64,000 bases of DNA from Phycisphaerales bacterium (GTDB lineage: Bacteria; Planctomycetota; Phycisphaerae; Phycisphaerales; UBA5793): the NCBI GenBank assembly GCA_020852515.1, contig JADZAS010000009.1, positions 1 to 64,000 on the forward strand. The letters are read 5' to 3'. Both the position numbers and the translations under genes were made by a program. How positions within the stretch are numbered: the stretch's first letter is position 1; every line of letters starts with the position of its first letter. Positions 122 to 20,610 of the stretch are shown one piece after another. The notes under the pieces are model-generated. The model ran no database searches and had not been told where the DNA came from. It saw only the letters and a list, made by a program, of their open reading frames with translations.

Positions 122-1333
122 CTACGCAACGGAAACCGGCGGCAACACGAACGAGAAAGTCGTGCCTCGGCCAAGCGAGGATGTGACGGCCAACTGCGAG
201 CCGGCTGCGCGGATGATGCCGTGTACGAGCGAGAGACCAAGGCCAGTGGAGATGCCGCGCGTCTTGGTGGTAAAGAAGGGGTCGAGGCAGCGCTTCAACA
301 CTTCCGGCGGCATTCCGGGTCCGTTGTCGCTGACGCCGATGCGCACGCCCTCACCGGACTCCTCGGCTTGAGCCCACAGGCGCACCAGCCCGTCGTCGCG
401 CCCGCGCAGCACTTCGCCGGCGTTCTGAATGAGGTTGAACGCGACCTGCGCGAGCCGGTGCGGTGCAATTCGAACGGCTGGCAGGTTTGCCGGAATCTCG
501 GTCTTGAGGTTGACGCCGCGCGGCAGTGAATTCCGCAGGATCGGCTCGATCTCGTCGAGCCATGCAGGCAACTTCACGAGTTCATCGCCGCTGCTGCGCG
601 AAGGATCCAGCGAGACCAGGCGCAATCCGCTGGCCAGCCGCCGCAGGTATTGCACGCACATTGTCAGGTGGCGCACGCCTTCCTCGAGGTCCGGCGGCAG
701 TTGGGCGGCCTTGATGGAGTTCGTCCACACGCTCAAGGGCAGGAGCAGGTTGCCCATGTCGTGGCCCAGCCCGGCGCAGAGGGTGCCTATCGACGCCATG
801 CGCTCGGAGAGCCGCAACTCGCGCTGACTCCGCTCGAGTTCGCGCGTGCGCTCGGCGAGGCGTTCGGCGTGGATGCGCGCTTCCTCGGACTTGCGATGCA
901 GTTCGACGAAGACGGACACCTTGGCCCGCAGCACCTCGGGAATAACCGGGGCGAAGATGTAATCGACAGCGCCGAGCGAATAGCCCCGCAGTGCGTCGAT
1001 CTCGTTCATGTTGACGGCCGAGACGAAGATGATCGGCGTGGTCGCTGAGCGCACGCGCGAGCGGATCATGCGGGCGGTTTCGAAGCCGTCCATGTCGGGC
1101 ATGTTGACGTCAAGAATGATGGTGGCAAAATCGCGCGAGAGCAGCTGGCGCAGCGCTTCCCGCCCCGACGAAGCCGCGATGACGTTCTCTCCGAGCGCCG
1201 CCAGCGCCGCCTCGAGCGCCAGCAGTTTGCTGGCGTTGTCATCCACGACGAGGATGTCAACCGCCTGCCGTGGAGGCGCTGCCTCCGGACCCGGCGGCGC
1301 GGCCGATCCCCACTTGCCGTTGCTTTCAGACAC
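122..1333 (-). CDS. Response-regulator/histidine-kinase hybrid (REC-HisKA-HATPase)
   Basis: Predicted cytoplasmic signalling protein of 403 aa. An N-terminal receiver domain (residues 25-140, phospho-acceptor Asp75 in LDVNMPD) is joined by a coiled coil to a kinase core with an H-box-like GLGHDMGN (His191), an N-box (NLIQNAGE) and ATP-lid motifs DNGPGM and GLGLSL. The chosen GTG at 1333 overlaps the stop of the upstream giant kinase by 8 bases (GTGTCTGA), which implies translational coupling. Oddity: the near-invariant receiver lysine, usually in a KP pair, reads AP (DYIFAPV), so phosphotransfer to this receiver may be altered. It may pass signals with the neighbouring kinase and short receivers. 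Start by inference; family assignment firm. Confidence 0.9.
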
Positions 1334-4300: not shown

Positions 4301-7058
4301 CGCCCGGCACGCTCGCCTGGCCGCCGAGTTTGCCTTCCACACCCACTTCGCGGGCCACGCTGGTGACCTGGTCGGCAAAGGTGGCCAGCGTGTCGATCAT
4401 GCCGTTGATCGTGTCGGCCAATGCGGCGATCTCGCCCTTGGCCTCGAGCTGCAACTTCTGCCGCAGGTTGCCGTTGGCCACGCCGGTGACGACGCGCGCG
4501 ATGCCGCGCACCTGGGCGGTGAGGTTCGACGCCATGAGGTTGACGTTGTCGGTGAGGTCCTTCCACGTGCCGGCGACGCCCTTCACCTGGGCCTGTCCGC
4601 CGAGCTTACCTTCGGTGCCCACTTCACGGGCCACGCGGCTCACTTCATTGGCGAACGCGTTCAACTGGTCCACCATCGTGTTGATGGTGTCTTTGAGTTC
4701 GAGGATCTCGCCCTTGACATCGACGGTGATCTTCTTGGTGAGGTTGCCGTTGGCCACGGCGGTAGTCACGGCGGCGATGTTGCGCACCTGGCTGGTCAGG
4801 TTCGACGCCATGAGATTCACGTTGTCGGTGAGGTCCTTCCACGTGCCGGCGACGCCGAATACGTTGGCCTGACCGCCAAGGCGGCCTTCGGTGCCCACTT
4901 CGCGGGCCACGCGGGTCACTTCCGACGCGAACGACCTCAACTGCTCGACCATCGTGTTGATGGTTTCCTTGAGTTCGAGCATTTCGCCGCGCACGTCCAC
5001 GGTGATCTTCTTTGAAAGGTCGCCCTTGGCGACAGCGGTGGTCACTTCGGCGATGTTGCGCACCTGGCTGGTCAGGTTGGACGCCATGGAATTGACGTTG
5101 TCGGTGAGGTCCTTCCACGTGCCGCTCACGCCCTTGACGTCGGCCTGGCCGCCGAGCTTGCCTTCGGTGCCCACCTCGCGGGCCACGCGGGTCACTTCCG
5201 AGGCGAACGAACTCAACTGGTCCACCATGGTGTTGATGGTGTTCTTGAGGTCGAGGATCTCGCCCTTGACGTCCACCGTGATCTTCTTGGAGAGATCGCC
5301 CCTGGCCACGGCGGTGGTCACATCGGCAATGTTGCGCACCTGGGCGGTGAGGTTGCCGGCCATCAGGTTGACGTTGTCGGTGAGGTCCTTCCACGTGCCG
5401 GCAACGCCCTTCACGTCGGCCTGTCCGCCGAGTTTCCCTTCCGTGCCCACTTCGCGGGCCACGCGGGTCACTTCCGACGCGAACGACCCCAGCTGATCCA
5501 CCATCGTGTTAATGGTGTTTTTCAGTTCGAGGATCTCGCCCTGCACGTCCACGGTGATCTTGCGCGACAGGTCGCCGTTGGCGATGGCGGTAGATACTTC
5601 GGCGATGTTGCGCACCTGGGCCGTGAGGTTGCCGGCCATCAGGTTCACGTTGTCGGTGAGGTCCTTCCACGTGCCGGCGACGCCCTTTACATCGGCCTGT
5701 CCGCCGAGTTTGCCTTCGGTGCCCACTTCGCGAGCCACGCGGGTTACTTCCGATGCGAACGAACTCAACTGGTCCACCATGGTGTTAATGGTGTTTTTCA
5801 GATTGAGAATCTCTCCCTGCACATCGACGGTGATCTTGCGCGACAGGTCGCCGTTGGCCACGGCGGCGACCACCTGGTCGATGTTGCGCACCTGGGCGGT
5901 GAGGTTGCCTGCCATGAGGTTGACGTTGTCGGTCAGATCTTTCCACGTGCCCGCGACGCCCTTCACCTGGGCCTGTCCGCCGAGTTTCCCTTCGGTGCCC
6001 ACTTCGCGGGCCACGCGGGTCACTTCCGACGCGAACGAGCTCAACTGGTCCACCATGGTGTTGATGGTGTTCTTGAGGTCGAGGATCTCGCCCTTCACAT
6101 CGACGGTGATCTTGCGCGACAGATCGCCCTTGGCCACGGCGGTGGTGACGTCGGCGATGTTGCGCACCTGGTCGGTGAGATTGCCGGCCATGAGGTTGAC
6201 GTTGTCGGTCAGGTCCTTCCACGTGCCGGCGACGCCCTTCACGTCGGCCTGTCCGCCGAGTTTGCCCTCGGTGCCCACTTCGCGGGCCACGCGCGTCACT
6301 TCCGACGCGAACGAACTCAACTGATCCACCATCGTGTTAATGGTGTTCTTGAGGTCGAGGATCTCGCCCTTCACATCCACCGTGATCTTCTTGGAGAGGT
6401 CACCCTTGGCCACGGCGGTGGTCACCTCGGCGATGTTGCGCACCTGAGCCGTGAGGTTGCCGGCCATGAGGTTGACGTTGTCGGTGAGGTCTTTCCAGGT
6501 GCCGGCGACGCCGGGGATGTCCGCCTGCCCGCCGAGTTTGCCGTCGGTTCCCACTTCGCGGGCCACGCGAATGACTTCCGACGCAAACGCGTTCAGCTGG
6601 TCCACCATGCTGTCTACGGTGCGCGCAGCGCGGAGGAACTGGCCCTGCAAGGGTCGGCCCTCCACGTCCAGCGCCACGGACTGCGTCAGATCGCCGTTGG
6701 CCACGGCCCCGATGACGCGCGACATTTCCATCGTCGGGCGCACGAGGTCGTCGATGAGCGCATTGACGGAGTGTTCGAGGGTGGCCCACGAACCCGACAC
6801 GGCGCCGAGCGATACGCGATGGCTCACCTTTCCTTCGATGCCGACCACGAGGCTGATGCGCTCAAGTTCGGCAGTGAGGCGAGCGTTCTGCTCGATCACG
6901 TCGTTGAGCGTGTCGGCGATCTTGCCGGCCGTGCCGTGCCAGTGCACGGGCAGACGGACGGAGAAGTCGCCTTTCTTGAGCGAGACGAGGCATTCGAGCA
7001 GGGCTTCGGTGTCGATCGTGTCGCTGGTCGCTTTGGAAGGCATGGGTGACCTCGTCAT
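1326..7058 (-). CDS. Giant HAMP-repeat hybrid histidine kinase (HAMP array-GAF-HisKA-HATPase-multiple REC)
   Basis: 1,910 aa, no signal peptide or membrane segment seen, so probably a soluble sensor. Order: a divergent HAMP-like unit (about 40-165), nine 92-residue HAMP repeats (about 168-995), GAF (about 1015-1150), coiled coil, HisKA with SHELRTPL (His about 1235), HATPase ([25 protein letters not shown]), then receiver 1 (LDLRLPD, about 1510-1615), a degenerate receiver 2 without a clear acceptor Asp, and receiver 3 ([10 protein letters not shown], about 1780-1895). The layout recalls fungal group III (Nik1/Os-1) and bacterial HAMP-array kinases. Its ATG overlaps the upstream receiver gene's TGA (ATGA), and the next gene overlaps its own stop, so three genes are coupled. 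The signal sensed is unknown; the HAMP array is probably the input or relay. Confidence 0.95.
4085..6560 (-). repeat. Nine 276-bp direct repeats encoding HAMP units
   Basis: Nine consecutive 92-codon units, each starting near [11 protein letters not shown] and ending near SEVTRVA, lie in frame inside the giant kinase. Units 1-7 are close to identical at the protein level and very similar in DNA; units 8 and 9 diverge toward the GAF side, and one older unit precedes the array. Such similarity suggests recent duplication or gene conversion, and the array could expand or contract without shifting frame. Confidence 0.9.
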
Positions 7059-7591
7059 GGTGGTCCCGAGATATCGCCGGCCGGGGCGTCGTCGCCACAT
7101 TGCGATGCGCCGGCAGGCGGCGTGAGCAGGTGAATGAACAGGTCTGCGGGCTCTTCGCCGAATCGAGTGTGCCGCTGACAGATCGCCTCGACTTCCGGCG
7201 AGAGTGCAAAGGCGCCGTCGGCGACGGAGCGAATGCCGTCAACCAGCGCCTCTTCCCCGTCGCTCTTGGAGATGTAGCCCCAGGCGCCGGCGCGGATGCT
7301 CCGCTCGAACAGTTCCGGGCTCACGTGCCCGCTGAAGACGATGATGCGCGCCGCGCAGCCGGCGCGGCTCAGCGCCGCAGCCGCCTCGAGCGGATCGCCG
7401 CCGGGCAAATCGAGATCGAGCAGAATGATGTCAGGATGCGCGCGCAGCGCCGTCGAGATGAGATCGTCGGTGGTGTCGATATTGCCGATCCACTCAAACC
7501 CGCCTGAGGACCGAAGTTTGGCGATGATTGCTTCGGCCACGAGGGCATTGTCATCGACGCACAAAACTCGCACGGGTAAGGTTGCACTCAT
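7055..7591 (-). CDS. Stand-alone response regulator (NarL-type receiver, no DNA-binding domain)
   Basis: 178 aa. Receiver domain from residue 6 (VRVLCVDDN) with acceptor Asp in [10 protein letters not shown] and the conserved lysine in YISKSD. The remaining C-terminal tail is too short and lacks the helix-turn-helix normally found in NarL/FixJ regulators, so it likely acts by protein contact or as a phosphate sink for the downstream kinase. The ATG at 7591 directly precedes the receiver; an upstream ATG at 7624 would only add 11 unlikely residues. The stop overlaps the kinase start (ATGA). The neighbouring gene at 7640-8026 is a paralogue. Confidence 0.85.
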
Positions 7592-7639
7592 CGCGCAGCA
7601 GTCTACACCATTTCCCCGGAGCATGAGTAAGCGAAAACC

Positions 7640-8190: not shown

Positions 8191-9750
8191 TCACCAGGAC
8201 ATAGCACGGTCCAGTCGGACGACGTTACTGGGCAGGCACGACTCCAGGTCCAGAAGTTGCAGATATGTTCCGCAGACTTCGCGCGTCCCCAGTCCGTCAA
8301 GCACGCGTCCGCCATTGGGGCCCGAATTCGTCTGATAGACGACCCTCGCGCCCGAGAAACCGAGGCCGAGCCATGTTCCGGCGCAGGGCAGGTTGCCGGG
8401 AACGTAGAAAAAGCCGCGATCGCTCGCATGAAGCAGCGCGACCCGGCCGTTTGGAGTGGCCCGCTCCCAGCGCACGGTGATGCGGAACTGTCCTACTGAG
8501 CACTCGGCCTCGACGGAAAGCACCGGTCCGCAGCGGCCGTGGCGGTCATAGATACACGCATTACCGAGGCGTGCGACGACCGGCACACCCGAACCACCGA
8601 TGACGAGAGTGTCCGGGGTCAGTACGACCGGTCGACCAAAGTCATTGCCGTACGGAGTGTCAATGTCGCGCATCCGGTCTTCGAACAGCCACTCATCGTT
8701 GGTCAGACGATAGCGGAAAGCGCGACCGGCGCCGGCATGGCTGTCGTCCGGTTCTCCCACCACAATGAGGTCGCCGTCCAGGGCGACGTCTGCCGCGAAC
8801 TCGTTTCCGGATGCAGGGTCGGGGGATTCGATTTTGGCGTGTTCGGTCCAAGTCTCTCCGACACGTTTGAACACGTACGCCGCACCTGCTGCCGAGTTGT
8901 GTTTCGCAGCGTCGAGTATTGCCCACTCGCCGCCGATTCTTGCGTGCCGGCCCGCGAGGTCAGAGAACGCTCCGTCGGATGCAGCCAGCAGCGCCTCGTA
9001 AACCCACTGCCCATTGTCGAGACGGTACACGAACGCGGCTCCCGTATTGATGTCGTTGGCGTCGTAGCCGAACGCTCCGATGAGCAGGCGATCGCCGGAC
9101 TTGCTCAATGATGAGCCGAACGCGTCGACTATTTGAGGATTGGGCAGGAGGATCGTCTGCACATGCTCCCACTGTGCCCCATTGAAGTGATAGGTCTGAA
9201 CCGCGCCTTCGCCGCGCTCAATCGGATTCGCTCCCGAGAATCCGAGGTAGGCGTCGTCGCCATCCAGTAGCACCTGCATCGAGAGCCCCTCATTGGGTCG
9301 CGGCGTGGGATTGGCGAGAATACCTTGGAACTGCCATCGCGAGCCGTTGAGCGCATAGACGGCCGCGGCGCCGGCGCCGTCAGCGCCGAGATCGGCTCCC
9401 TGGATCGCAATCAGCACTCGATTCCCGCTCACGCTTACGGACCGGCCAAACTGGTCCTGCTCTCGCGGCATCGGATTCATGATGATCGAATGTTCGCTCC
9501 ATTGGGCACCGTCGCGATGGTACATGTAGACGACGCCCGTGTTGACAGCATTGCCGTCTGTGAAGGGAGCGCCGACCGCCATCCATGATCCATCGACTGC
9601 GATTGATTCGCCGAAGCCGTCACTTTGAACCGACTGGGAGCCGTAGACCACCCCGAAATTCTCCAGACATTGTGCTTGGACGGCTGTCTGAGCGCCAATG
9701 GCCAGCACAACAGCTGCCGGTGCCGCGAGCCTGTTCAGTCGATGCGTCAT
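8191..9750 (-). CDS. Secreted FG-GAP-type repeat protein with shared C-terminal module
   Basis: 519 aa. The ATG at 9750 sits 7 bases after AAGGAGGA and starts a Sec signal peptide (MTHRLNRLAAPAA..., cleavage near AVQA-QC). The body (about 30-400) carries repeated beta-propeller-like FG-GAP units of the form DxFGxSVxVSGNRVLIA and GAAFVY. Residues about 415-519 form a cysteine-containing module ending in QLLDLESCLPSNVVRLD, related to the ends of the five other secreted proteins nearby. FG-GAP repeats typically bind ligands or cations at the surface; no enzyme motif is seen. Closest relative here is 13601-15157. The gene closes the secreted-protein run. Confidence 0.8.
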   Translation of the reverse strand: MTHRLNRLAAPAAVVLAIGAQTAVQAQCLENFGVVYGSQSVQSDGFGESIAVDGSWMAVGAPFTDGNAVNTGVVYMYHRDGAQWSEHSIIMNPMPREQDQFGRSVSVSGNRVLIAIQGADLGADGAGAAAVYALNGSRWQFQGILANPTPRPNEGLSMQVLLDGDDAYLGFSGANPIERGEGAVQTYHFNGAQWEHVQTILLPNPQIVDAFGSSLSKSGDRLLIGAFGYDANDINTGAAFVYRLDNGQWVYEALLAASDGAFSDLAGRHARIGGEWAILDAAKHNSAAGAAYVFKRVGETWTEHAKIESPDPASGNEFAADVALDGDLIVVGEPDDSHAGAGRAFRYRLTNDEWLFEDRMRDIDTPYGNDFGRPVVLTPDTLVIGGSGVPVVARLGNACIYDRHGRCGPVLSVEAECSVGQFRITVRWERATPNGRVALLHASDRGFFYVPGNLPCAGTWLGLGFSGARVVYQTNSGPNGGRVLDGLGTREVCGTYLQLLDLESCLPSNVVRLDRAMSW

Positions 9751-9767
9751 GACTTGTCCTCCTTCAG

Positions 9768-11090
9768 TCAACGAAATGTCGTGATGAGCGGCTGGCTCAG
9801 TGCGCAGCCGGTGGGTTCGATCATCTGAATGATGAATATCCGCCCGCGCGCCGCCGGGGGCACCATCAGTTGCAGTGTCACCACGCCGTCCTGGTCGGCG
9901 ACGGTCGAGCCGGCAGTGCTGGATTGGCGCATTTCGACGATGGCGGTAGGGCAGCCGGCTGGATGGCTGTAGCCCAGTTGCGTGCCGTACAGCAGCCGCA
10001 CCTGCGCGCCGGGCGTGGCGCCGGTGGCAACGATGGTATTCATCTGGCCTGCAATGCCCGGCGTCGGCGGACTGAGATGCAGCGGCGTCGGCACGAGTAC
10101 GACTGCTCGTTCGGTCTCGTCGCGCTTCGCGGCTCCCGCGATGTACCCGGAGTCATTGATGGCGCGAGCCGAAGTGATTTCCCACCCGCTGCTGGGAGTG
10201 ATGAAGTCGTTGAGGTCATAAGGCTGGCGGTCAATCCAGATGCACGGCCGCAAGCCGTTGCCCGGGGGATCGGCGTTGCCGACGATCACGCCGTTGTTGT
10301 TGATGTCCAGTGCGTAACTCCGCTTGCCGCCCAACGAAGGCAGCGGCGACATCGTTCCGCCTGTGAAGTCACCTTCGAACAGAAACGCTTCATTATCGCT
10401 TGAGCCGACCACCTGGTCGTGGTCGTTCATGGCCTCTGCGAAACTGTCTCGCGCGCCCGGGAGCATGCCCAGCGACGCCATGAGACCGTTCTCCCAGATG
10501 ATCGCGTGGTGCCAGCCGTTGGCGTCGGTCGCCCAGCCGCAGACGCGGCCGAAGGAATCGACGTCGGCAGCGCCGCTCTCGAAGCCGCCCGGCAGCGTGC
10601 CGATGTCAATCATCTGTTGGTCGCGCAGTACAAATCCATGTTCAAGCCTGTCTGAGGTTTCCGCCCAGCCCACAACGACGTCGTTGCGATTGACTCCCAG
10701 CGCCTGAGATCGCGCGCCTCCAAGTGTGCCGATGCTGTACACCTGTTGATTGACCCAGACGGCGGCCAGTGGCGTGGAGGAGTTGAAATTGGACCAGCCG
10801 ACAATGGTCCCGTGATCATTCATGGCGGCGGCGGCGGCGTCTTCGCGCGAATCGATCCGCGGCAGTTCGCTCAACACGCCGAGATTCCAGAGGACGGGCG
10901 CGTTCACGCCGGTGCCGGACTCGCCGACCGCCTGTCCGAAAGAGTTGATGTCGTAGGTAACCGTGAAGTCGCGGCGGCTTGGATACAGCGTGCCGACATC
11001 GATGACGCGGTATGACGACTGCGCTGCCGCAAGAGCCGTCGTTCCGAGGACGCAGCACGTGGCCGCCAGCATTCGAAACCGAACTTTCAT
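9768..11090 (-). CDS. Secreted HAF-repeat protein with shared C-terminal module
   Basis: 440 aa. The ATG at 11090 follows GAAGGAGAG by a normal distance and opens a signal peptide (MKVRFRMLAATCC..., cleavage near ALAAA-QSS). The body has HAF-type repeats (units such as GTLGG, AxDINxxGxxVGxA, W-x-NG), presumably a beta-propeller exposed outside the cell. The last 105 residues form the module shared with its neighbours (ATGATPGAQVRLLYG...; near the end MIEPTGCALSQ). A similar protein is encoded at 12256-13557. Ligand unknown. It lies 17 bases upstream of the next secreted gene, probably in one transcript. Confidence 0.8.
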   Translation of the reverse strand: MKVRFRMLAATCCVLGTTALAAAQSSYRVIDVGTLYPSRRDFTVTYDINSFGQAVGESGTGVNAPVLWNLGVLSELPRIDSREDAAAAAMNDHGTIVGWSNFNSSTPLAAVWVNQQVYSIGTLGGARSQALGVNRNDVVVGWAETSDRLEHGFVLRDQQMIDIGTLPGGFESGAADVDSFGRVCGWATDANGWHHAIIWENGLMASLGMLPGARDSFAEAMNDHDQVVGSSDNEAFLFEGDFTGGTMSPLPSLGGKRSYALDINNNGVIVGNADPPGNGLRPCIWIDRQPYDLNDFITPSSGWEITSARAINDSGYIAGAAKRDETERAVVLVPTPLHLSPPTPGIAGQMNTIVATGATPGAQVRLLYGTQLGYSHPAGCPTAIVEMRQSSTAGSTVADQDGVVTLQLMVPPAARGRIFIIQMIEPTGCALSQPLITTFR

Positions 11091-11125
11091 GTCGTTCTCT
11101 CCTTCGCGATTGGGAGACATCTGGC

Positions 11126-12220
11126 CTACTCCGGCCCGAAGGTGAAGAAGGTGAGGTTGCTCACTTCGCAGTTTGCCGGGTCCACGAGTTGCAGCAGCAC
11201 GGGAATGTCGAAGGCCTGGGTTGGCACGTAAATGCCGATGCGCGCCACTCCGTCGGCGTCGGTCATCGCACTGCCGATGATGCGGGGCCCGGCCAGTTCA
11301 ATGACGCTCCCGCTGCAACCCGGCAGACCCGTTGCGCCGAGCGAGCGGCTCAGGAGCAGGTGCACGGTGCTCATCGGCGCCGCGCCGACGACGTGGAAGC
11401 GATTGCTGCGGCCCACCAGGCCCGGGTTGGGCTCACTGACCAGCAACCGATCCATGAACGAAGGCGCCCAGGCGGCGCCGCACATCACATTTAGACGCTG
11501 CACCGGGGTAGTCAGCGGGTCGAGAAAGACGCCCGCAACCAGGTCGTACACGTAGATCGGTTCATTGCGATCCGACACAAAGTAGGCGCGCCCGTCTCCA
11601 GCCGCGAGACCATCCAGATCCAAAATGTGCTGTTGCGGGTAGATCGTGAGGAACTCCAGTTCCAGTTCAACGGGATCGATGCGGTACAGAGCACCACCCT
11701 CGGCGCCAGTGCCGTCGGCCAGCCCGAGCAGCGACTTCGTCAGGCCGTCGTAATCGATGCCCCCGAAGTGAAAGTCAGGGTTGAGCGGCATGACGAGCGC
11801 CGCTTCGCGCGTCGTCAGATCGATCTGATAGAGGGCTGACTGCGGCGCTTCAGCGATGCCGTACAGGATGCCGGCGTCGCTGTCCCACGCCAGGCCGAGC
11901 ATGGATATCGGCTCCCCGTCAAACTCGATGACGCCGAGATACGAAGGACGCAGCGTTTCGGCGGAAACGGAAAACAACCCCTCGTCGCTGCAGTAGTAGA
12001 TCAGGCCAAGATCGTTATCCGCCGTCATGCCCCAGGCGCCGCCCGCGCCATAGAGCCAGGGAGAGAGCACCTGGAACGACCGATCGTTTTCGACGTCGAT
12101 GAGGTACTGCGGTCCGTCGAAGCGGTCCGTGGCGAACATCAATTGTGCACTTACCGGGCCGGCTGCGGTCAGCGCCAACATCGCGAGCACGTGTCGGGCC
12201 CATTGTTCAATCTTCGTCAT
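11126..12220 (-). CDS. Secreted protein with propeller-like body and shared C-terminal module
   Basis: 364 aa. The N-terminus MTKIEQWARHVLAMLALTAAGPVSAQ is a clear signal peptide. The body (about 27-260) has short beta-rich repeats (DxxxGxLYGIxE, LYxIDLTTRE, YVYDLVAG) resembling YncE/PQQ-like propellers but without a recognisable enzymatic signature. Residues about 262-364 match the terminal module of the neighbouring HAF proteins (VHLLLSRSLG..., DxDGVARIGIYVP, QLVDPANCEVSN). Spacing to both neighbours is about 35 bases. No function is assigned; a surface or extracellular structural role is inferred from context. Confidence 0.75.
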   Translation of the reverse strand: MTKIEQWARHVLAMLALTAAGPVSAQLMFATDRFDGPQYLIDVENDRSFQVLSPWLYGAGGAWGMTADNDLGLIYYCSDEGLFSVSAETLRPSYLGVIEFDGEPISMLGLAWDSDAGILYGIAEAPQSALYQIDLTTREAALVMPLNPDFHFGGIDYDGLTKSLLGLADGTGAEGGALYRIDPVELELEFLTIYPQQHILDLDGLAAGDGRAYFVSDRNEPIYVYDLVAGVFLDPLTTPVQRLNVMCGAAWAPSFMDRLLVSEPNPGLVGRSNRFHVVGAAPMSTVHLLLSRSLGATGLPGCSGSVIELAGPRIIGSAMTDADGVARIGIYVPTQAFDIPVLLQLVDPANCEVSNLTFFTFGPE

Positions 12221-12255
12221 GTGTTGGAGTCCCTTCGTTCAGTGTGCGCCGCGGT

Positions 12256-13557
12256 TCATTCGATGGTTCGAGTCACAACACCAGTGGTCTTGCCTTGCTG
12301 GGCGCCCTGGAAGAGCACGCGCGCACCGCTCGTGCCTGGCGGTACGTTGAGCGTCCACATGATGTCGCCCTGTTCGTCAGTCCGACCTCGCGCCGCGAGC
12401 CGCGGGCGATGCAACTGGAGTTCCACGCCCAGCGGCGGGATGTACGTCAAACCGAAGCCGCTGGTGCCGTAGGCCAGGAATACGGGGGCGACTGGTGTGC
12501 CTCCGGTGATTTGCACATCCACGGGTTGTCCGGAGATCAGCGATCCGACCTCGAGCGAGGGATCGGGAATGAGCACGTAGCCCTCCCTGCGGCCCTCGCG
12601 CCGGCCGAGGCCGACGATCCAGCCGCGATTGTTGATGTCATTGGCGGACTGGAGCACCCAGCCCGTCCCCAAGACGTATTGGTTGAGATCAATCACTTGT
12701 CCGTCGCGCCACATCACCGCGCGTTCGCCCAGCTCGTTGGAACTGGCGGTTCCGACGATGACGCCGACGTCGTTTATGGCTGCCGGACGGGTCCAGGCGT
12801 CGCCGCCAAGGCGGGGCAGTTCGGCGATCTCCCTTTGATCCCAGATGCACGGCGCCGTGGTGGAGTTGTCGGCGGAGTAGCCGACGATCACGCCGTGCTT
12901 GTTGATCGAGACGGCCATGGAAGTCAGGTGATCTTCGAGCACTCCCAGATCGGTCATCATGCCATCCGCCCAGATGTATGCGTGCTCGAAGCCGCCGGCG
13001 GTGTCGGCTTGTCCCACGACCTGTGAGTGCTCATTGATGTCGAGAGCGATGGAATCGGCGCCGCCGAGCGCGCCAAGGTCGGTGAAGATGCCGTCCTCCC
13101 AGAGGAAAGCGGTCGTGCGGCCGAAACTTCCCTCCGTCGCTTCTCCGACGATCTGGTCCAGATCATTGATCGCGGCCGCCTGCGACTTTGCGTAGCCGGG
13201 CAGTGTTCCAAGCGAGATCTGCTGTCCGTCCTCCCACATCGCTGCCAGAAACTCGGAATTTCGTCCGACGGCGTGCCCCAGGTGATTGATGTCTACCGCG
13301 CTGGCGTTCCCGAGAACGTGCAATTGGCCGTCTTCCCAGAGGACGGCCAGGTCGGGCCCGCCGCCGCCATAGCCCCGACTGTAGCCGACGACCTGCCCTG
13401 CGTTGTTCAATCCATAGGCGTCGCTGTCGAGATCCTGCATGCTGATGCTGTAGATCTGGTAGTGTTGTGCCATCGCCTGAACGTTGGTGACGGCCGCGGC
13501 AACGGCGCACGCGGCTACGCGGAGCATTCTGCGCCTGCACTTGACTCTCTGTTTCAC
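12256..13557 (-). CDS. Secreted HAF-repeat protein
   Basis: 433 aa from the GTG at 13557, which gives a basic n-region (VKQRVKCRRRMLR) and a hydrophobic stretch ending near QAMA-QHY; ATG 13527 and GTG 13590 are alternatives. The body contains about seven HAF-type units (DIN-x-x-GxVVGxA, FLWEDGxxTDLGxLGG, AxIWADGMMTDLG). The final hundred residues resemble the shared module (ITGGTPVAPVFLAYG, LNVPPGTSGARVLFQGAQ) but lack the terminal cysteine seen in its neighbours. It is paralogous to 9768-11090 and lies in the same probable operon. Confidence 0.75.
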   Translation of the reverse strand: MKQRVKCRRRMLRVAACAVAAAVTNVQAMAQHYQIYSISMQDLDSDAYGLNNAGQVVGYSRGYGGGGPDLAVLWEDGQLHVLGNASAVDINHLGHAVGRNSEFLAAMWEDGQQISLGTLPGYAKSQAAAINDLDQIVGEATEGSFGRTTAFLWEDGIFTDLGALGGADSIALDINEHSQVVGQADTAGGFEHAYIWADGMMTDLGVLEDHLTSMAVSINKHGVIVGYSADNSTTAPCIWDQREIAELPRLGGDAWTRPAAINDVGVIVGTASSNELGERAVMWRDGQVIDLNQYVLGTGWVLQSANDINNRGWIVGLGRREGRREGYVLIPDPSLEVGSLISGQPVDVQITGGTPVAPVFLAYGTSGFGLTYIPPLGVELQLHRPRLAARGRTDEQGDIMWTLNVPPGTSGARVLFQGAQQGKTTGVVTRTIE

Positions 13558-13600
13558 TTCCGCACCGGCCTTTCTGCCCCTCGGCTTCACTCAAGGAGAG

Positions 13601-15157
13601 TCAATCCACTTGGACTGGATCGCTGACCGAGCACGTCAGGATATTGAGCAGTTGCATGTATCCGCCGCACACCCTCTGGCTAACCTGCGTGGTCACCGAC
13701 CGATTGCCCTGTACACCCGCGTCCCCCATGTACGCCAGCTGGAGATTTCTCGGATCAAGGTCCAGCGACACACCCTCGCATGGGCCGCCCGGAGGCAGGC
13801 TTGACTGCCCGGTCTGCGGCGAGAAGAAGATCGCCACCATTCCGCCCGGAGTGGCGTTTGTCCAAGAGAGGCGAAGCGCGCCTGCATACGGGCATGGGGA
13901 AATGATTTCCAGCGTCGGGCGGCAGTCGGCTACATCAATGACGTGCACCTGCCCGCCGTACTGATCGCCGAAGATGTGGTCGCGCCAGTTCACCCAGGCA
14001 TCGGTGTCGGTCAGCGCAATCGCGTCGGCAAACTGATCACCCACTTCGGATCGCGACGCGATCAGCCGCGGGCCCTGCACCCACGCACCATCCATCCGGC
14101 GGAAGAGGTACGCTGCGCCGCTGCCCGAGTTGACGGTTTCGCTGGGGGCGGCGATGAGCGCCGTATCGCCGCGCACGGCGATTCGCGCACCGAAGCGCCG
14201 GCTGGTTCCCTGCAGGTCGAAGATCGAGAAGGAACTGGACTCGGTTTCGTTCCAGACACCCAACTCGCGCCGGTAGACGTAGACGCGCCCGGGCCCACTC
14301 GATTGTCGGCCGCCGATCAGCGCTTCGTCGCCGTCGAGGCACACGCCGCGTCCGAACGCGCCGCTTGATTCAGGATCGCTCGGGAGCAGGTGGGCGGTCT
14401 CCACCCACTCGTCATTGACCTTTTCGAACACCCACGCTGCCCCGTAGCCACTTGCCGCTTCGGATGCACCGGCGAGTACGGTGCCGTTCTGCACTGACAA
14501 GGCCATGCCAAGACGGTCGTTCGTTCCGGTGGCGGCGCCGTTGACTTGGGCCACCTGCGTCCAGACGCCATCGATGCGCTCGAAGATGTAGACGAGGCCC
14601 TCGCTGTTCTGAGCCCCGGTGGCGCTGATGGCCGCCACGTCGCCATCGAGGGCCACGGCGTAGCCGAAGTACTCGCGCCCACCGGGCTCTTCGACTGAAA
14701 ACGTATCGACGAGCGTCCAGGTCGAGTCGATGAGTTCGTAGACGTAGGCGGCTCCGCGATGGAGGTCCTGGCCTTCGTGCATGGGAGCGCCGATCAGCAG
14801 CGTGTTGCCCTGCATGGCGACGCTGTGGCCGAACTCATCGCCGCCGAAGCGATTGCGATCGGGGCAGTCGATCTTCTGCCGCTGGCGCCACTTGTCCTGC
14901 TCAAAGTGCATGATGAAGACCGAGCCGGTCTTGAACTGCGGGACGGCATACGGGGCCTGAAAGCCGCGATTGTCGTTGTAGTCCTGATTGGCCCCAATGG
15001 CGGCCCACGGCCCGTCCACGGCGATCGCATTGCCAAACGTCGCGACCGGATCGCCCACGGGGGCGAGGTACTGGTCGCCGGTGCACTGGGCGCGGGCTGA
15101 TCCAGCGGCTAGGACGGTCCAACCGCATGTCAGCGTCAGCATCGCGATTTTTCTCAT
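13601..15157 (-). CDS. Secreted FG-GAP-type repeat protein with shared C-terminal module
   Basis: 518 aa. ATG 15157 is placed 6 bases after AAGGAG and starts a signal peptide (MRKIAMLTLTCGW..., cleavage near GSARA-QC). The body holds FG-GAP-like units (DEFGHSVAMQGNTLLIGAP, YFGYAVALDGDVAAISA, GAAYLFRRMDG). Residues about 410-518 form the shared cysteine module (ATPGGMVAIFF, VCGGYMQLLNILTCSVSD). It is the nearest relative of 8191-9750. It follows the kinase gene after a 119-base gap, so it may have its own promoter. Confidence 0.8.
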   Translation of the reverse strand: MRKIAMLTLTCGWTVLAAGSARAQCTGDQYLAPVGDPVATFGNAIAVDGPWAAIGANQDYNDNRGFQAPYAVPQFKTGSVFIMHFEQDKWRQRQKIDCPDRNRFGGDEFGHSVAMQGNTLLIGAPMHEGQDLHRGAAYVYELIDSTWTLVDTFSVEEPGGREYFGYAVALDGDVAAISATGAQNSEGLVYIFERIDGVWTQVAQVNGAATGTNDRLGMALSVQNGTVLAGASEAASGYGAAWVFEKVNDEWVETAHLLPSDPESSGAFGRGVCLDGDEALIGGRQSSGPGRVYVYRRELGVWNETESSSFSIFDLQGTSRRFGARIAVRGDTALIAAPSETVNSGSGAAYLFRRMDGAWVQGPRLIASRSEVGDQFADAIALTDTDAWVNWRDHIFGDQYGGQVHVIDVADCRPTLEIISPCPYAGALRLSWTNATPGGMVAIFFSPQTGQSSLPPGGPCEGVSLDLDPRNLQLAYMGDAGVQGNRSVTTQVSQRVCGGYMQLLNILTCSVSDPVQVD

Positions 15158-15276
15158 TCCAAACTCCTTCTTCGTCCATCGAGCCAGCCGCCGGGGCGAG
15201 CGGGCGATGGGCTCCATCCGACTAAACGATGCCAGGCGGTTGGATGGCTCACTTCAGCCGCTGGGTTGCGGCACGA

Positions 15277-17919
15277 TCAGTTTTCCCGCTTCGGCGCCTG
15301 ATGGGCTTCGAACATTGAACGGACCCGAGTGGCATCTTCGGGACGGCGGGCTTCATCGTAGAGTTGCTCCATCACGTTGATGAGTCGGAATCGGTACTCA
15401 GCTTCAGCGTCGGTCAGGCCACTCCAGTCAGACAGGTACGCCTCACCTTCTTGAATCGCGATCACCAACTGGCCAGAATCCGCAAGCGCGACAACCCGTT
15501 GCAGCTTCGCCTCAAGCGCTAGCACGTGATATGGGTCAAGGGCCCGTTCAATGTGCTCAAGGAGCGGGTTGAGCAAATCCAATTGCGCCTCGAATTTCTC
15601 CTGGGCTCCCATTACGCTCGCCAAACGGATGCGGGATCGCAGCGTCTTGACATGATCCTCACCGAGGACTTCAGTGCGTCGAGACACGACCTCCTCGAAT
15701 TCCCTTTCCGCTTCCGTGTAGCGGTGTTGCTTCATGTGCACTTCGGCCAGGCCGGCTAGGGCGGAGAGCGTGTACGGAGCGTCTGCTCCAAAGCGTGCAC
15801 TCACACCGGCGTAGGTCGATTCGGCGACCGCTGCACTCTCCTCCAATTGCCCCAATTCGAGCAGCAATTCGGCTTCGTTGATGCCTGACAGGAGTGCGAA
15901 CGGACTCTCCTCTCCCTCAAGTCGCCGAAAGGTCGATTGGCTGGCCCGAATCATGTCAAGGGCCTCCGCGAGTCGTCCAAGTCGCCGATAGATCAAGGCA
16001 ATGTTCTGCTGGCAGCCCGCAACATTGTGCCCGACTTCCCCCTGTGCGAGCTTCGCGAACTTCAGCGCTTGCTGAAACGAATCGAGTGCCGCTTCAGTCT
16101 GGCCGAGATCGATCTGAACGAGTCCCTTGCCGTTCCACCAATAGAATCTGAGTTGATCGCTTGGCAGTGTCGATACATCCGACTCAGTCTGATTCAGTAG
16201 TCCGAGCGCGTCTGATGTGCGGCCGAGTTCATACAGCATGATTGCTTTGTCAAGCATCGCCACGACCATGCCGCGTCGGTCGTTCGCACGGCGAAAACCC
16301 TCGATGGCGACGTCGATGCGTGAGAGCCCTTCGTCGAAGCGCCCTTGCGTCACATCGATCGCCGCGATATGCGAAACGGAGAGCATCGCTTCCGGCGAGC
16401 TACCATGTCCTGCTGTTTCATACAACTGGACGCTCCGTGACAAATGGGTCTTCGCCTCGTCCAGTTCTTGAAGAGCCTCTAAAACAAGGCCAATGAGAGA
16501 GTGCAGGCCTGCAGCAGTCAGTGGCTCCACTCCAAATTTGTCCTCCACGTCGTCGTACGAATCCCTGAGCAGATCAACGACTCTAAGCCCGGCACGATTA
16601 CTGCGTGTCGGATCAGCTGAGTTCACCAGATCAAGCACGAACTCGTTGATAGACTTCGCCCGGTGCGTCTGTGCGGCACTCGCCTCACGCGCTGCCTGGA
16701 GCCGGGCCATCAGTGCACCCGTCACGCCCACTGCAGTCAGAACGATCAGCACCATCGCCAGAATCGCCGCGACGCCAACGCGATGGCGGCGGGCCAGCAG
16801 GCGCAACTGATACGCCGCGATCGCGGGCCGCGCCGTGACCGGCTCGTGCGACAGAAATCGCCGCAGGTCGGCCGCGAGCTCCGAGGCCGATGCGAATCGC
16901 TCTGCCGGGGCCTTGGCCAAAGCCTTGAGCAGCACCGCTTCGAGGTCGACGGGAAACCTGCCGTCAACCTCGCGCGGCCGCCTTGGCTGCTCGTTCTGAA
17001 TGATCGCCGCGGCGCTGCTGATCGTCGCCTCGCGGACCTCGTACGGCAATGCGTCGCACAGCGCTTCGTAGAACACGACACCCAGAGAGTAGACGTCGCT
17101 GCGCGCATCCACCTCCGACCCGCTGGTGCACTGCTCCGGACTCATGTACTGCACCGTGCCGGCGCGCGTTGTTCCGATCGCTTCCGTATTGTCGAGCCGC
17201 TCGTGATCGAGCGTCCGAGCGATTCCGAAGTCGATGATGCGCACCTGCCCGGCGCCATCCACGAGAATGTTGGCCGGCTTGAGATCGCAATGCACCACGC
17301 CGTTCAGGTGGCCGTGGTGCACTGCCTCGCATACCGCGATCATCACTTCCAGCGCTGCGCGGCGGTCGAGTTCGCTCTCGCGCAGATACGTCGACAGGGT
17401 CCGCGCGTCGGGCACGTACTCCATCGCAAAGTACGGCAGGCTCGGACCGCCTGCAGTCTCCGCGTGCACGCCCGCTTCGATGATCTGCGCGATGCCGGGG
17501 TGACGCAGCCGGCCGAGGCACTCGACCTCGTAGCGGAAGCGCTCGACTGCGACGTGATCTTCCAGAGAGCAGCGCATCACCTTCAGTGCGACGGTTCGCG
17601 ACGGAGACTCCTGCTGGGCCTTGTAGACCACTCCCATTCCGCCTTGGGCGATGATCTCGATGAGTTGATAGCGGCCGATGACCGACCCGAGGAGACTCTC
17701 GGGGTCGAGCAGGGTCAGCAGTGATGGATCAGAACTGAAGGCCGGACTTTCCAGAAACGAGCCGGCCTGATCGTCTGCCTGCAAGAGCGACTCGATGCGC
17801 TGCCGCAGCGTCGCGTCGCCGCCGCAGGCTCGCTCAAGATACTCCTCTCGCGCAGCGCTGCTCATCTCGCGCGCGGCTTCGAAGATCCCTCGCTCGCGGC
17901 GCACGGTATCCGCGTTCAT
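15277..17919 (-). CDS. Membrane Ser/Thr protein kinase with TPR-like C-terminus
   Basis: 880 aa. ATG 17919 follows GAGGAG by 3-4 bases. Residues about 60-345 form a Hanks-type kinase: Gly-loop AQGGMGVVYKA, VALKV, catalytic loop HCDLKPANILV (HCD in place of HRD), DFG, and SPE for APE. A single membrane segment (VAAILAMVLIVLTAVGVTGA, about 380-405) is followed by several hundred helical residues with TPR-like spacing, presumably outside the membrane. The catalytic Asp and Lys are present. Planctomycetes often pair such kinases with ECF sigma factors; here the sigma gene is 38 bases upstream on the same strand. It may control the secreted-protein genes downstream (inference). Confidence 0.92.
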   Translation of the reverse strand: MNADTVRRERGIFEAAREMSSAAREEYLERACGGDATLRQRIESLLQADDQAGSFLESPAFSSDPSLLTLLDPESLLGSVIGRYQLIEIIAQGGMGVVYKAQQESPSRTVALKVMRCSLEDHVAVERFRYEVECLGRLRHPGIAQIIEAGVHAETAGGPSLPYFAMEYVPDARTLSTYLRESELDRRAALEVMIAVCEAVHHGHLNGVVHCDLKPANILVDGAGQVRIIDFGIARTLDHERLDNTEAIGTTRAGTVQYMSPEQCTSGSEVDARSDVYSLGVVFYEALCDALPYEVREATISSAAAIIQNEQPRRPREVDGRFPVDLEAVLLKALAKAPAERFASASELAADLRRFLSHEPVTARPAIAAYQLRLLARRHRVGVAAILAMVLIVLTAVGVTGALMARLQAAREASAAQTHRAKSINEFVLDLVNSADPTRSNRAGLRVVDLLRDSYDDVEDKFGVEPLTAAGLHSLIGLVLEALQELDEAKTHLSRSVQLYETAGHGSSPEAMLSVSHIAAIDVTQGRFDEGLSRIDVAIEGFRRANDRRGMVVAMLDKAIMLYELGRTSDALGLLNQTESDVSTLPSDQLRFYWWNGKGLVQIDLGQTEAALDSFQQALKFAKLAQGEVGHNVAGCQQNIALIYRRLGRLAEALDMIRASQSTFRRLEGEESPFALLSGINEAELLLELGQLEESAAVAESTYAGVSARFGADAPYTLSALAGLAEVHMKQHRYTEAEREFEEVVSRRTEVLGEDHVKTLRSRIRLASVMGAQEKFEAQLDLLNPLLEHIERALDPYHVLALEAKLQRVVALADSGQLVIAIQEGEAYLSDWSGLTDAEAEYRFRLINVMEQLYDEARRPEDATRVRSMFEAHQAPKREN

Positions 17920-17957
17920 GCGCTCCTCATTCCGACGCGCCGCCCGAGAAGGCGCCG

Positions 17958-18485
17958 TCAGCGGCGGTCCAGCTCCTCGTACAGCCAAGCCTTGGCGAAC
18001 GCCCAGTCTCGCTTGGCCGTTGCCGCCGACACGCCCGCGCTCCGCGCCGCTTCCTGAATCGTAAGTCCGGCAAAGTAGCGCAGCATCACGATCTGGTACA
18101 GGCGGTCATCAACCTCTTTGAGCCGCGTCAGCGCCTCGTCGACCATCAACAGTTCAGTCGTGCCGTCTTCGGAGCACGCATGGTTGTCCTGCAGGTCAAT
18201 ACGAATTCGCCCGCCGCCATGGCGCACCGCTTGTCGCTTTCGGGCTCGATCGATGAGAATGTGCCGCATCGCCTGGGCCGCGGCTCGGAAGAAATGGCCC
18301 TCATCGGTCCAGGATCCGCCATCGCTGACGCCCAGTCGCAGGTAGGTTTCGTGCAAGAGGTCGGTGGCCTCGAGCGTCTCTCCCCGATTCTGCCGGGACA
18401 GCAGTTGCCGTGCGAGTTGTCGGAGGGGGTCGTACAGATGCGCCGCAAGGACTTGCCCGTCCGGGGCCGCACAAGCATCGGGCAT
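17958..18485 (-). CDS. ECF-family RNA polymerase sigma factor
   Basis: 175 aa from ATG 18485. Region 2 shows LHETYLRLG, FFRAAAQAMRHILIDRARK, typical of the planctomycete ECF group; region 4 shows RLYQIVMLRYFAGLTIQEAA followed by a recognition helix (GVSAATAKRDWAFAKAWL). The size and motifs match the group normally encoded beside Ser/Thr kinases, as here. There is no anti-sigma factor gene adjacent, so control probably passes through the kinase. Upstream in-frame sequence to 18683 looks unrelated to the family and was left out. Confidence 0.9.
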   Translation of the reverse strand: MPDACAAPDGQVLAAHLYDPLRQLARQLLSRQNRGETLEATDLLHETYLRLGVSDGGSWTDEGHFFRAAAQAMRHILIDRARKRQAVRHGGGRIRIDLQDNHACSEDGTTELLMVDEALTRLKEVDDRLYQIVMLRYFAGLTIQEAARSAGVSAATAKRDWAFAKAWLYEELDRR

Positions 18486-18681
18486 GAGCTCGTCCTGTTC
18501 TGGTGTTCGTTCCAAGCCGCTCCCTCTGCCACAATGACGTGCACTCCACCCCTTTATGACACAAAAACGGTCGGCCGTGAGCCATCCGGCAGTAATCTGA
18601 CGTATATTAGCAGAGACCGGCACGAATCTGGTGGTCCGAATCTCCCGCCACCGAAAAGTTAGGGCCGGTGAAGGAGACGCC

Positions 18682-20610
18682 ATGCACCGAGCGATCCGTG
18701 TCCTGATTCTCGCTGTGCTCGGGGCTGCCGCATCGGTCGTTTCGGGCCAGACGGTCTACTTTGTCAATGCATCCGCCCCGCCGGGCGGCGACGGCCTGAG
18801 TTGGGCCACCGCCTTTCAACACCCTCAGCAGGGCTTGGATGCCTTTCCGGTGGGATCTGCCGAAATCTGGGTGGCCGCAGGCACCTATTACCCCACGACG
18901 CGCATCTCGCCTCCCGATCCACGCACCGCCACGTTCGTCATGCGCAACAGGCGCTCGCTCTACGGCGGATTCGCCGGGAACGAGACCAGCCGCGTCCAGC
19001 GCGACCCCGCCGCCAACCCGACGATCTTCAGCGGTGATATCGGCGAACTTGAAGATCCCTCCGATAACGCGTTCCACGTCGTCTATGCGGTTGGCGATGA
19101 CCACACCACGATCCTCGACGGCGTGATCGTCCGCGATGGCGACGCCGGTGCAACCATCCAGGTCGGCGCCGGTCTCTGGGGCGACGGCACTTCGATGCAG
19201 ATTCGCAACTGCATCTTCGAGGACAATCGGGCCCAGTACCAGGGCGCCGCGGTCTATTTCCGAGGATCGGGTAACCCCGTTGTCGCCGACACGTTGTTTC
19301 GAGACAACATCGCCGCCGACTGGGGCGGCGCGGTGAGCTGCAAGTCCGCCCGCGCGCTGTTTATTCGTTGCACGTTTCAGGACAACGTCGGCGGTCCCGG
19401 CGGCGGAGCGTTGCGCCTCGACGGCGGAAATTTCGAACTCGTCGACTGCGCGTTCATCGGCAACGAGGCTCTCGTGGGTGCGGGCCTCTCGACCGATCGC
19501 GTGCGGCACCTCGTCATGAGCGGGTGCACCTTTGAGCGCAATATTGGCTGGGCAGGTAACGCCGCCGCGAGTCTGCACCTTTTCCAGCAGAGCACCATCG
19601 AGTACTGTACGTTTGTCGAGAATGTGGCGCTTGCCGGCGACGGCGGGGCGCTGACGGTTGATGCTGAGGAGCCCGTCTGGATTCAGAACTGCACGTTTGA
19701 GCGAAACGAGGCGGCGCGCGATGGCGGGGCCATCTACGGCCGGCTTTCGGGTGGTGGCATCTTCGGCTGCCTCATCGTCGACAACACTGCGGGCGGCAGT
19801 GGCGGCGGCATCTACATCAACCCGTGGGCTGCATCGCCGATACTGGCGTGCACGTTCTACGGCAATTCCGCGGGCGCTCTCGGCGGCGGTTGTTTCAACG
19901 CCGGGCCTCGTTTCGACGCCCAGTCGCTCGACTGCATCTACTGGGCCAACACCGACTCGACTGGCAGCGGTGAAGACGCGCAGCTCGCCGGTGCGTACGG
20001 CCAGCCGTTCGCCAACTCCTGTACGATCCAAGGCTGGTCGGGCTCCTGGAGCGGGTCGTACAACAACGGCTTCGATCCGCTCTTCGTCGACGCGACGTCG
20101 GGCGATTTCGCCCTCAGCCCCGGTTCGCCCTGCATCGACTCCGGAGACAGCAACACGCTGCCGCCTGAGCCGCTGATTGACGCACGCCGCCAGCCACGAT
20201 ATGTCGATGACCCTGCGACCCCCGATACCGGCTTCGGGCCGCCTCCACTGATCGATCGCGGCGCGATTGAGTTTCAAGCGACAGCACGGCCGCTTGTCCT
20301 GTCCGTGTCGGGCAGTTGCCCGCAAGGCAGCGCGATGCTCATCACCTGCGCCGGCGCCACGCCGCATAGCCAAGTGGCAATCCTCTTTGCCGCGTCGGCG
20401 GGCGAGACATACATCCCGCAGGGCTATCCGTGCCAGGGCATCATGCTCGGACTCAGCGATCAGCGGCTTACCGTCGTGCTGGCCGAGCGCAGTGACGATC
20501 AGGGAAGCCTGGCCCGGCTCATCTTCGTACCGCGCGAAGCGTGCATTGGATCGCTCCAGGCGCTTGACTTGCGTTACTGCCGCACGAGCAACGTCGTGCC
20601 GCTGGATTGA
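18682..20610 (+). CDS. Secreted right-handed beta-helix protein with shared C-terminal module
   Basis: 642 aa. ATG 18682 is preceded by GAAGGAGA and opens a signal peptide (MHRAIRVLILAVLGAA..., cleavage near VVSG-QT). The body (about 30-540) has right-handed parallel beta-helix coils with repeats like CTFERNxAxxGGAIY and IRNCIFEDNRAQYQGAAVYF, as in polymorphic-outer-membrane-protein and pectate-lyase-fold proteins; an N-terminal stretch (YVNASAPPGGDGLSWATAF-like) is usual for this class. The last 100 residues carry the shared cysteine module (ATPHSQVAILF, QALDLRYCRTSNVVPLD). It is divergent from the sigma-factor gene with a 196-base spacer. Surface adhesion or polysaccharide contact is possible; no catalytic triad was identified. 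Confidence 0.82.
   Translation: MHRAIRVLILAVLGAAASVVSGQTVYFVNASAPPGGDGLSWATAFQHPQQGLDAFPVGSAEIWVAAGTYYPTTRISPPDPRTATFVMRNRRSLYGGFAGNETSRVQRDPAANPTIFSGDIGELEDPSDNAFHVVYAVGDDHTTILDGVIVRDGDAGATIQVGAGLWGDGTSMQIRNCIFEDNRAQYQGAAVYFRGSGNPVVADTLFRDNIAADWGGAVSCKSARALFIRCTFQDNVGGPGGGALRLDGGNFELVDCAFIGNEALVGAGLSTDRVRHLVMSGCTFERNIGWAGNAAASLHLFQQSTIEYCTFVENVALAGDGGALTVDAEEPVWIQNCTFERNEAARDGGAIYGRLSGGGIFGCLIVDNTAGGSGGGIYINPWAASPILACTFYGNSAGALGGGCFNAGPRFDAQSLDCIYWANTDSTGSGEDAQLAGAYGQPFANSCTIQGWSGSWSGSYNNGFDPLFVDATSGDFALSPGSPCIDSGDSNTLPPEPLIDARRQPRYVDDPATPDTGFGPPPLIDRGAIEFQATARPLVLSVSGSCPQGSAMLITCAGATPHSQVAILFAASAGETYIPQGYPCQGIMLGLSDQRLTVVLAERSDDQGSLARLIFVPREACIGSLQALDLRYCRTSNVVPLD

Follow-up and report, generated by a model that had tools for sequence, protein, structure and literature searches.

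The window analysed here is a stretch of 64,000 nucleotides at the start of contig JADZAS010000009.1 of a Phycisphaerales bacterium, and it encodes six neighbouring secreted proteins, named P1 to P6, which end in a common C-terminal domain, called here the module. The module is uncatalogued in Pfam and NCBIfam, yet it has at least 150 copies in its own genome and is present in every searched genome of two families. Because this uncatalogued domain closes at least 149 different proteins of its genome and sits where relatives carry known anchoring tags, the module probably represents a novel type of C-terminal label for addressing or docking.

Six proteins with one C-terminal module

The original prediction, made from the letters of the window, placed one related C-terminal module on six proteins with different bodies. 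A hidden Markov model (HMM) was trained on 143 modules from outside the window, so that the search was not circular, and among the 709 window frames of at least 50 aa it matched exactly P1 to P6 (E 5.6e-30 to 2.1e-11). All six were found where they had been placed, as follows.

P1, 8191..9771, minus strand: signal-peptide-like N-terminus, FG-GAP_2 body (E 3.2e-36), four-cysteine module (E 1.1e-26)
P1 module, 8194..8532, minus strand: cysteine pattern CCCC
P2, 9768..11120, minus strand: HAF-repeat body (E 1.8e-23), two-cysteine module (E 1.3e-17)
P2 module, 9771..10091, minus strand: cysteine pattern -C-C, model pLDDT 94.5
P3, 11126..12220, minus strand: body without significant family (DUF4394 sub-threshold), two-cysteine module (E 5.5e-21)
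P3 module, 11129..11449, minus strand: cysteine pattern -C-C
P4, 12256..13590, minus strand: HAF-repeat body (E 1.1e-34), cysteine-free module (E 2.1e-11)
P4 module, 12259..12567, minus strand: no cysteines
P5, 13601..15217, minus strand: FG-GAP_2 body (E 2.6e-41), four-cysteine module (E 5.6e-30)
P5 module, 13604..13927, minus strand: cysteine pattern CCCC
P6, 18631..20610, plus strand: parallel beta-helix/PMP body (Beta_helix E 4.3e-17), four-cysteine module (E 1.3e-28)
P6 module, 20281..20607, plus strand: cysteine pattern CCCC, model pLDDT 95.8

Of the body types that had been named, FG-GAP is present in P1 and P5, HAF (HAF/DUF3466) in P2 and P4, and a right-handed beta-helix/PMP body in P6; the propeller-like body of P3 is unconfirmed, the sub-threshold DUF4394 match being its sole trace. 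The module motifs that had been described hold in five of the six proteins, and P4 lacks both core cysteines (pattern ----).

The window modules thus present three cysteine patterns, and the same patterns dominate the own genome, where 104 modules are CCCC, 40 are -C-C, four are ---- and one is -CCC. A profile-profile comparison of two window subsets gave a probability of 92.8 and an E of 4e-7. The HMM of the four-cysteine modules only recovered all 40 two-cysteine and all four cysteine-free modules (E<1e-3), and the two-cysteine HMM recovered 87 of the 105 four-cysteine modules at the same threshold, while reversed sequences used as control gave no matches. Since the HMM of each subtype recovers the other and the reversed controls give nothing, the modules are, judged by sequence, one family with three cysteine subtypes and not disjoint subsets; no HMM that joins only subsets, the outcome that would have spoken against the prediction, was obtained. 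Chance similarity among Ig-like (immunoglobulin-like) C-termini was ruled out by the non-window HMM together with the reversed controls. The cysteine columns disappear pairwise across the modules, and disulfides 1-3 and 2-4 are predicted for this reason.

Copy number and position of the module

Contigs, loci and compared genomes are denoted by C, L and G followed by a number, and f1 and f61 stand for the own family and for a distant family, respectively. In the own genome (4.72 Mb), at least 150 module matches were found with E below 2e-8. The match C37:45769 was left out, because an internal stop close to the end of the module interrupts its frame, which leaves a denominator of 149. From the module end to the stop codon there are at most six residues in 148 of these 149 complete copies and at most nine in all of them, and none of the 149 proteins has a second significant module copy.

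The relatives with named records present the same arrangement: the module is terminal in all 127 matches that have a stop (123 by the end of the HMM, and four in which the alignment breaks off early although the domain closes the chain), after four of the 131 matches were left out because the locus contains no stop. In other families, 22 of 24 loci were terminal. Of 127 proteins, 123 have a hydrophobic segment at the N-terminus, called by a heuristic and not by SignalP, where matched internal positions give an expectation of 5.2. Among 74 alignment windows, conservation is highest in the last 26 columns.

Predicted fold and family searches

Three alignments were prepared. Alignment A2 holds 48 of the 149 modules; A6 combines three modules of the window with 73 of the 85 that a similarity filter kept from 103; and A7 holds three window modules and 11 of the 24 sorted as type B by a crude rule, of which nine are really four-cysteine modules and four are an outlying variant. 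Two of the six modules, one for each main subtype, were modelled with AlphaFold 2. The P6 module (76 sequences) reached a pLDDT (predicted local distance difference test) of 95.8 and a pTM (predicted template modelling score) of 0.87, and the P2 module (14 sequences) reached 94.5 and 0.84, respectively. With strands assigned by DSSP, both models are a single Ig-like beta-sandwich. The two modelled members thus share a fold, and differing folds, the other outcome that would have spoken against the original prediction, were not obtained for them.

For both models, the top Foldseek matches were neocarzinostatin or macromomycin (TM about 0.56-0.63). VIA gave Z 8.9 and 9.4 for 1nco, with ties at Z about 9-10 to Nir2, pectate-lyase and Ig domains; among the listed folds, Nir2, complement and antibody domains count as general Ig-like matches. 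The modelled fold can safely be called Ig-like and neocarzinostatin-like. Neocarzinostatin-type apoproteins are free-standing chromophore carriers. Any likeness to the module would be one of fold, since the module has no Pfam match to them and the identity is 10-20%; the best hit of a PDB profile search was C-1027 at E 0.099.

A Pfam scan of 48 modules found no covering family, and neither the neocarzinostatin family nor PF07589 at E<=1. An NCBIfam scan of the same number likewise found no covering family, and no NF041540 at E<=1; neither scan had a model of the C-terminal domain (CTD) of the type IX secretion system (T9SS) among its matches. No ligand- or carbohydrate-binding family was matched in these two scans, and searches of the open-licence PMC (PubMed Central) literature gave no title on the domain.

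Bodies and domain swapping

The 133 own-genome bodies of at least 60 aa formed 46 BLAST clusters, and the 16 shorter bodies of the 149 stood outside the body scan. The body families include HAF (27), SBBP/DUF7948 (11), FG-GAP, kelch, beta-helix, I-set and others, and the module also closes enzymes such as subtilases, an M28 peptidase and sorbosone dehydrogenase-like proteins. Ten matches to the NCBI choice-of-anchor families were found in the 133 bodies (Q 6, B 2, R 1, J 1); in NCBI usage, these families precede alternative anchors.

In 75 of the 133 proteins, the nearest module is on a body of another cluster. Moreover, 55 protein pairs have modules that are 68-85% identical and bodies in different clusters, and in 54 of these pairs the bodies do not match at E<1e-3. 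By Fitch counting, the body type changes 28 times on the module tree, where at least 7 changes are required and shuffling gives 64 on average, so that the pairing of body and module, as read from this tree, is partly inherited and partly swapped. The domain-swapping family proposed for the window is therefore well supported, both by the pairs of similar modules on bodies of different clusters and by the nearest modules that cross clusters.

The inherited part of this pairing (28 changes against 64), together with the many repeat proteins among the bodies that could need capping, would suit a passive C-terminal cap or spacer, which stabilises repeat bodies and was spread by recombination with no targeting role. 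We regard such a cap as improbable, given that the module is also found on enzymes and alone, and that order-mates carry known anchor tags at the same place.

Distribution and alternative anchors

The phylum scan, in which the best 12 candidates per genome were scored, gave a module match in 37 of 392 genomes, and fuller scans scored at most the best 150 per genome. In the own family, the module is present in six of six genomes, with at least 149-150 copies each; in the distant family, it is present in 26 of 26 genomes of 16 genera, with 9 to 63 copies each; and five genomes of five other families have one to six copies each. Outside the own family, no genome of the order had a match in the 392-genome scan of the best 12 candidates each, and the module was also absent from four order-mates (G002, G077, G111 and G251) under the fuller scoring. 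This sharp presence and absence within one order means that a partner should be findable by phylogenetic profiling.

Named relatives with the module are Phycisphaerales bacterium UBA5793 and the metagenome-assembled genomes KLAP200, PLA1, PLA5 and PNC21 (from metagenomes). The records of isolate PLA1 that are titled Vicinamibacteraceae (L171, L179, L180 and other WYBR loci) have modules up to 73% identical to those of planctomycete records, and the label looks wrong. A mobile-element or viral origin was rejected, since a consensus query had no plasmid match and no viral match was confirmed.

The place of the module is held by other anchors in the same order. Matches to PEP-CTERM (E<=0.01) number 10-12 in the own genus; 135, 80, 16 and 8 in the order-mates G077, G111, G002 and G251; and 0, 0, 0 and 1 in four genomes of the distant family. 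HAF bodies are followed by the module in G000, G303 and G207 and by a PEP-CTERM tail in G077, and the HAF body of G251 has a PEP-CTERM-like tail that lies below the family models. In the own genome, 20 of the 22 listed HAF frames end in the module. The C-termini of FG-GAP proteins were read at 16 loci, two of which lack a usable end. The FG-GAP_2 body carries the module in G207 and G346 (in the latter, one clear and one weak match), and the GC-type dockerin NF041540 in all four readable proteins of G002. Of three FG-GAP loci in G251, one has Dockerin_1, a second has a dockerin-like end that falls below the models, and the third has no known tag.

By these family matches, HAF and FG-GAP_2 provide a choice-of-anchor setting, in which the same body has different C-terminal anchors across genomes. 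Since these bodies carry PEP-CTERM or GC-dockerin in order-mates, the module, on the evidence of the same matches, stands on two body types where two established classes of anchor are otherwise found. The idea that the module simply replaced PEP-CTERM throughout the order was rejected, because G002 and G251 have few PEP-CTERM matches (16 and 8) and no module, and their FG-GAP bodies carry dockerins instead.

Exosortase matches number two in each genome of the own genus and one each in G317 and G170. G207 and G346 are module-rich and have none, and exosortase is thus ruled out as a necessary processing enzyme, being unmatched in two of the four module-rich f61 genomes. Eight own-genome PEP-CTERM proteins that were inspected are proteins other than the module-bearing ones. 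At C26:23276-23783 of the own genome, a PEP-CTERM gene and a module gene stand tail to tail, with ends about 125 bases apart. Many contigs of G077 have a PEP-CTERM tail in their first 200 bases, which looks as though the assembly had broken at these repeated tags.

A proposed function

We consider it rather probable that the module is a folded C-terminal label, by which secreted proteins are attached to the surface of the cell or to an extracellular matrix. The sequence comparisons have established a shared family in single, terminal position, with body swapping and alternation with known anchors. On the mechanism, we infer that the proteins are exported through the N-terminal signal peptide and that the Ig-like beta-sandwich, with two disulfides, one or none, folds in oxidised form outside the cytoplasm. 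The last beta-hairpin and the free C-terminus would then be recognised by a putative envelope partner, following the logic of the T9SS CTD, and this partner would export, anchor or dock the protein, which would be retained at the surface. The module would in this way fill the slot held by PEP-CTERM or GC-dockerin on the same bodies in sister families. It may either be cleaved off, which would mean sorting as in the T9SS, or be retained for docking as the dockerin is. The surface-anchoring or sorting role suggested by the original prediction is supported indirectly by the terminal position, by the N-terminal hydrophobic segments and by the anchor tags of the order-mates; the act of anchoring and its machinery are conjectured.

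Several observations weigh against this function as an anchoring label. No partner machinery was found. Two of the 24 copies in other families are internal, being followed by 138 and 300 further residues, and two of the 22 own-genome HAF frames (L307 and L308, on contigs C5 and C16) end bare with no tag. In G317, all three FG-GAP frames that were read end in another beta domain and not in the module. The own genome retains 12 PEP-CTERM matches and two exosortases, so that PEP-CTERM has been replaced at most in part. A small number of evolutionary events may lie behind both the paired cysteines and the division into subtypes, which also weakens the prediction of the disulfides. Finally, 16 proteins, by heuristic start, are bodyless and consist of a signal peptide and the module; at least 12 of them, with 127-197 aa, are whole frames, many stand in tandem, and C12:28881 runs off its contig. 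Such solo proteins are not predicted by a pure address label, and their existence favours docking or self-assembly instead.

Separately, the C-terminal beta-rich domains of the G317 loci L317, L322 and L327 are similar to each other and are possibly another anchor type. Tandem arrays of signal-peptide-plus-module proteins occur at L041, L046, L118, L124 and L133, and also in the relative KLAP200 (L238).

The solo proteins in tandem would make sense as lattice subunits if the module were a non-covalent binding or self-assembly domain, which attaches to a matrix polysaccharide, to an S-layer or to other modules, so that the body is displayed on a lattice, with no recognition for export. A docking domain, the dockerin, is in the same slot in a sister genome, and Ig-like sandwiches are common binding folds. 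However, a binding domain does not need a single, strictly terminal copy with a tail of at most nine residues in every one of the 149 proteins, and the 48 scanned modules matched no binding family; we see this explanation as somewhat unlikely. Under the preferred reading of a surface or matrix label, the module identifies the proteins that probably form the surface proteome of uncultured planctomycetes.

Gene neighbourhood in the window

The genes from P5 to P1 share a strand and are separated by 10, 35, 5 and -4 bases, and P6 is divergent. The run lies directly downstream of two further genes, which makes seven co-directional genes.

Ser/Thr protein kinase with a TPR-like C-terminal part, 15277..17988, minus strand: just upstream of P5
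Extracytoplasmic function (ECF)-type sigma factor (Sig-70_X6), 17958..18683, minus strand: E 2e-53

It is plausible from this gene order that the sigma factor, the kinase and the module genes are a regulatory unit, in which the ECF sigma factor and the kinase may control the expression of surface proteins. Elsewhere in the window, a hybrid histidine kinase of 1924 aa (1326-7100, minus strand) has about ten near-identical HAMP-like repeats, named by eye from the sequence, and the receiver of a NarL-type response regulator (7055-7624) lies beside it.

Comparison with known C-terminal systems

In the account of RgpB (PMC4804311), the T9SS CTD is an Ig-like C-terminal sandwich that follows a signal peptide and any body, with the signal in its last strands, namely in the last 22 residues. 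The module is likewise a folded Ig-like C-terminal sandwich with conserved last strands on many unrelated signal-peptide proteins. It differs in its planctomycete origin, in the paired cysteines of most copies and in its nearest solved folds, which among the matches listed are neocarzinostatin, Nir2 and Ig domains. The outline shared with that account would fit a diverged T9SS CTD served by a T9SS, although PF18962 (Por_Secre_tail) had no match in the own genome, with a control that matched weakly in one Bacteroides, and no T9SS CTD family was among the NCBIfam matches to the 48 modules; this origin is very improbable. The search for SprA matched none of seven genomes, but the control genomes likewise gave no match.

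PEP-CTERM (PF07589, exosortase PF09721; PMC1569441) is a short motif with one transmembrane helix and a basic tail. As with the module, the tag is strictly C-terminal, is carried by many bodies, is expanded per genome and is found at the same end of HAF bodies; the module, however, is a soluble sandwich of about 100 residues, and G207 and G346 have it with no exosortase match. The GC-type dockerin (NF041540) is likewise folded and C-terminal, and an order-mate carries it on the same FG-GAP_2 bodies; it differs in being EF-hand-like, in its length of about 55-67 residues and in having no sequence match to the module.

The known classes of C-terminal anchors (LPXTG, PEP-CTERM, T9SS CTD and dockerin) each led to a machinery. 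It is possible, and we propose it tentatively, that an undescribed system for export and anchoring, with a folded Ig-like C-terminal domain as its address label, operates in two distant planctomycete families, and that its sorter or receptor would be conserved in all of these genomes. If so, this system would be analogous to the T9SS and exosortase systems but independent of them, and the proteins that it serves would number between 9 and more than 150 in each genome.

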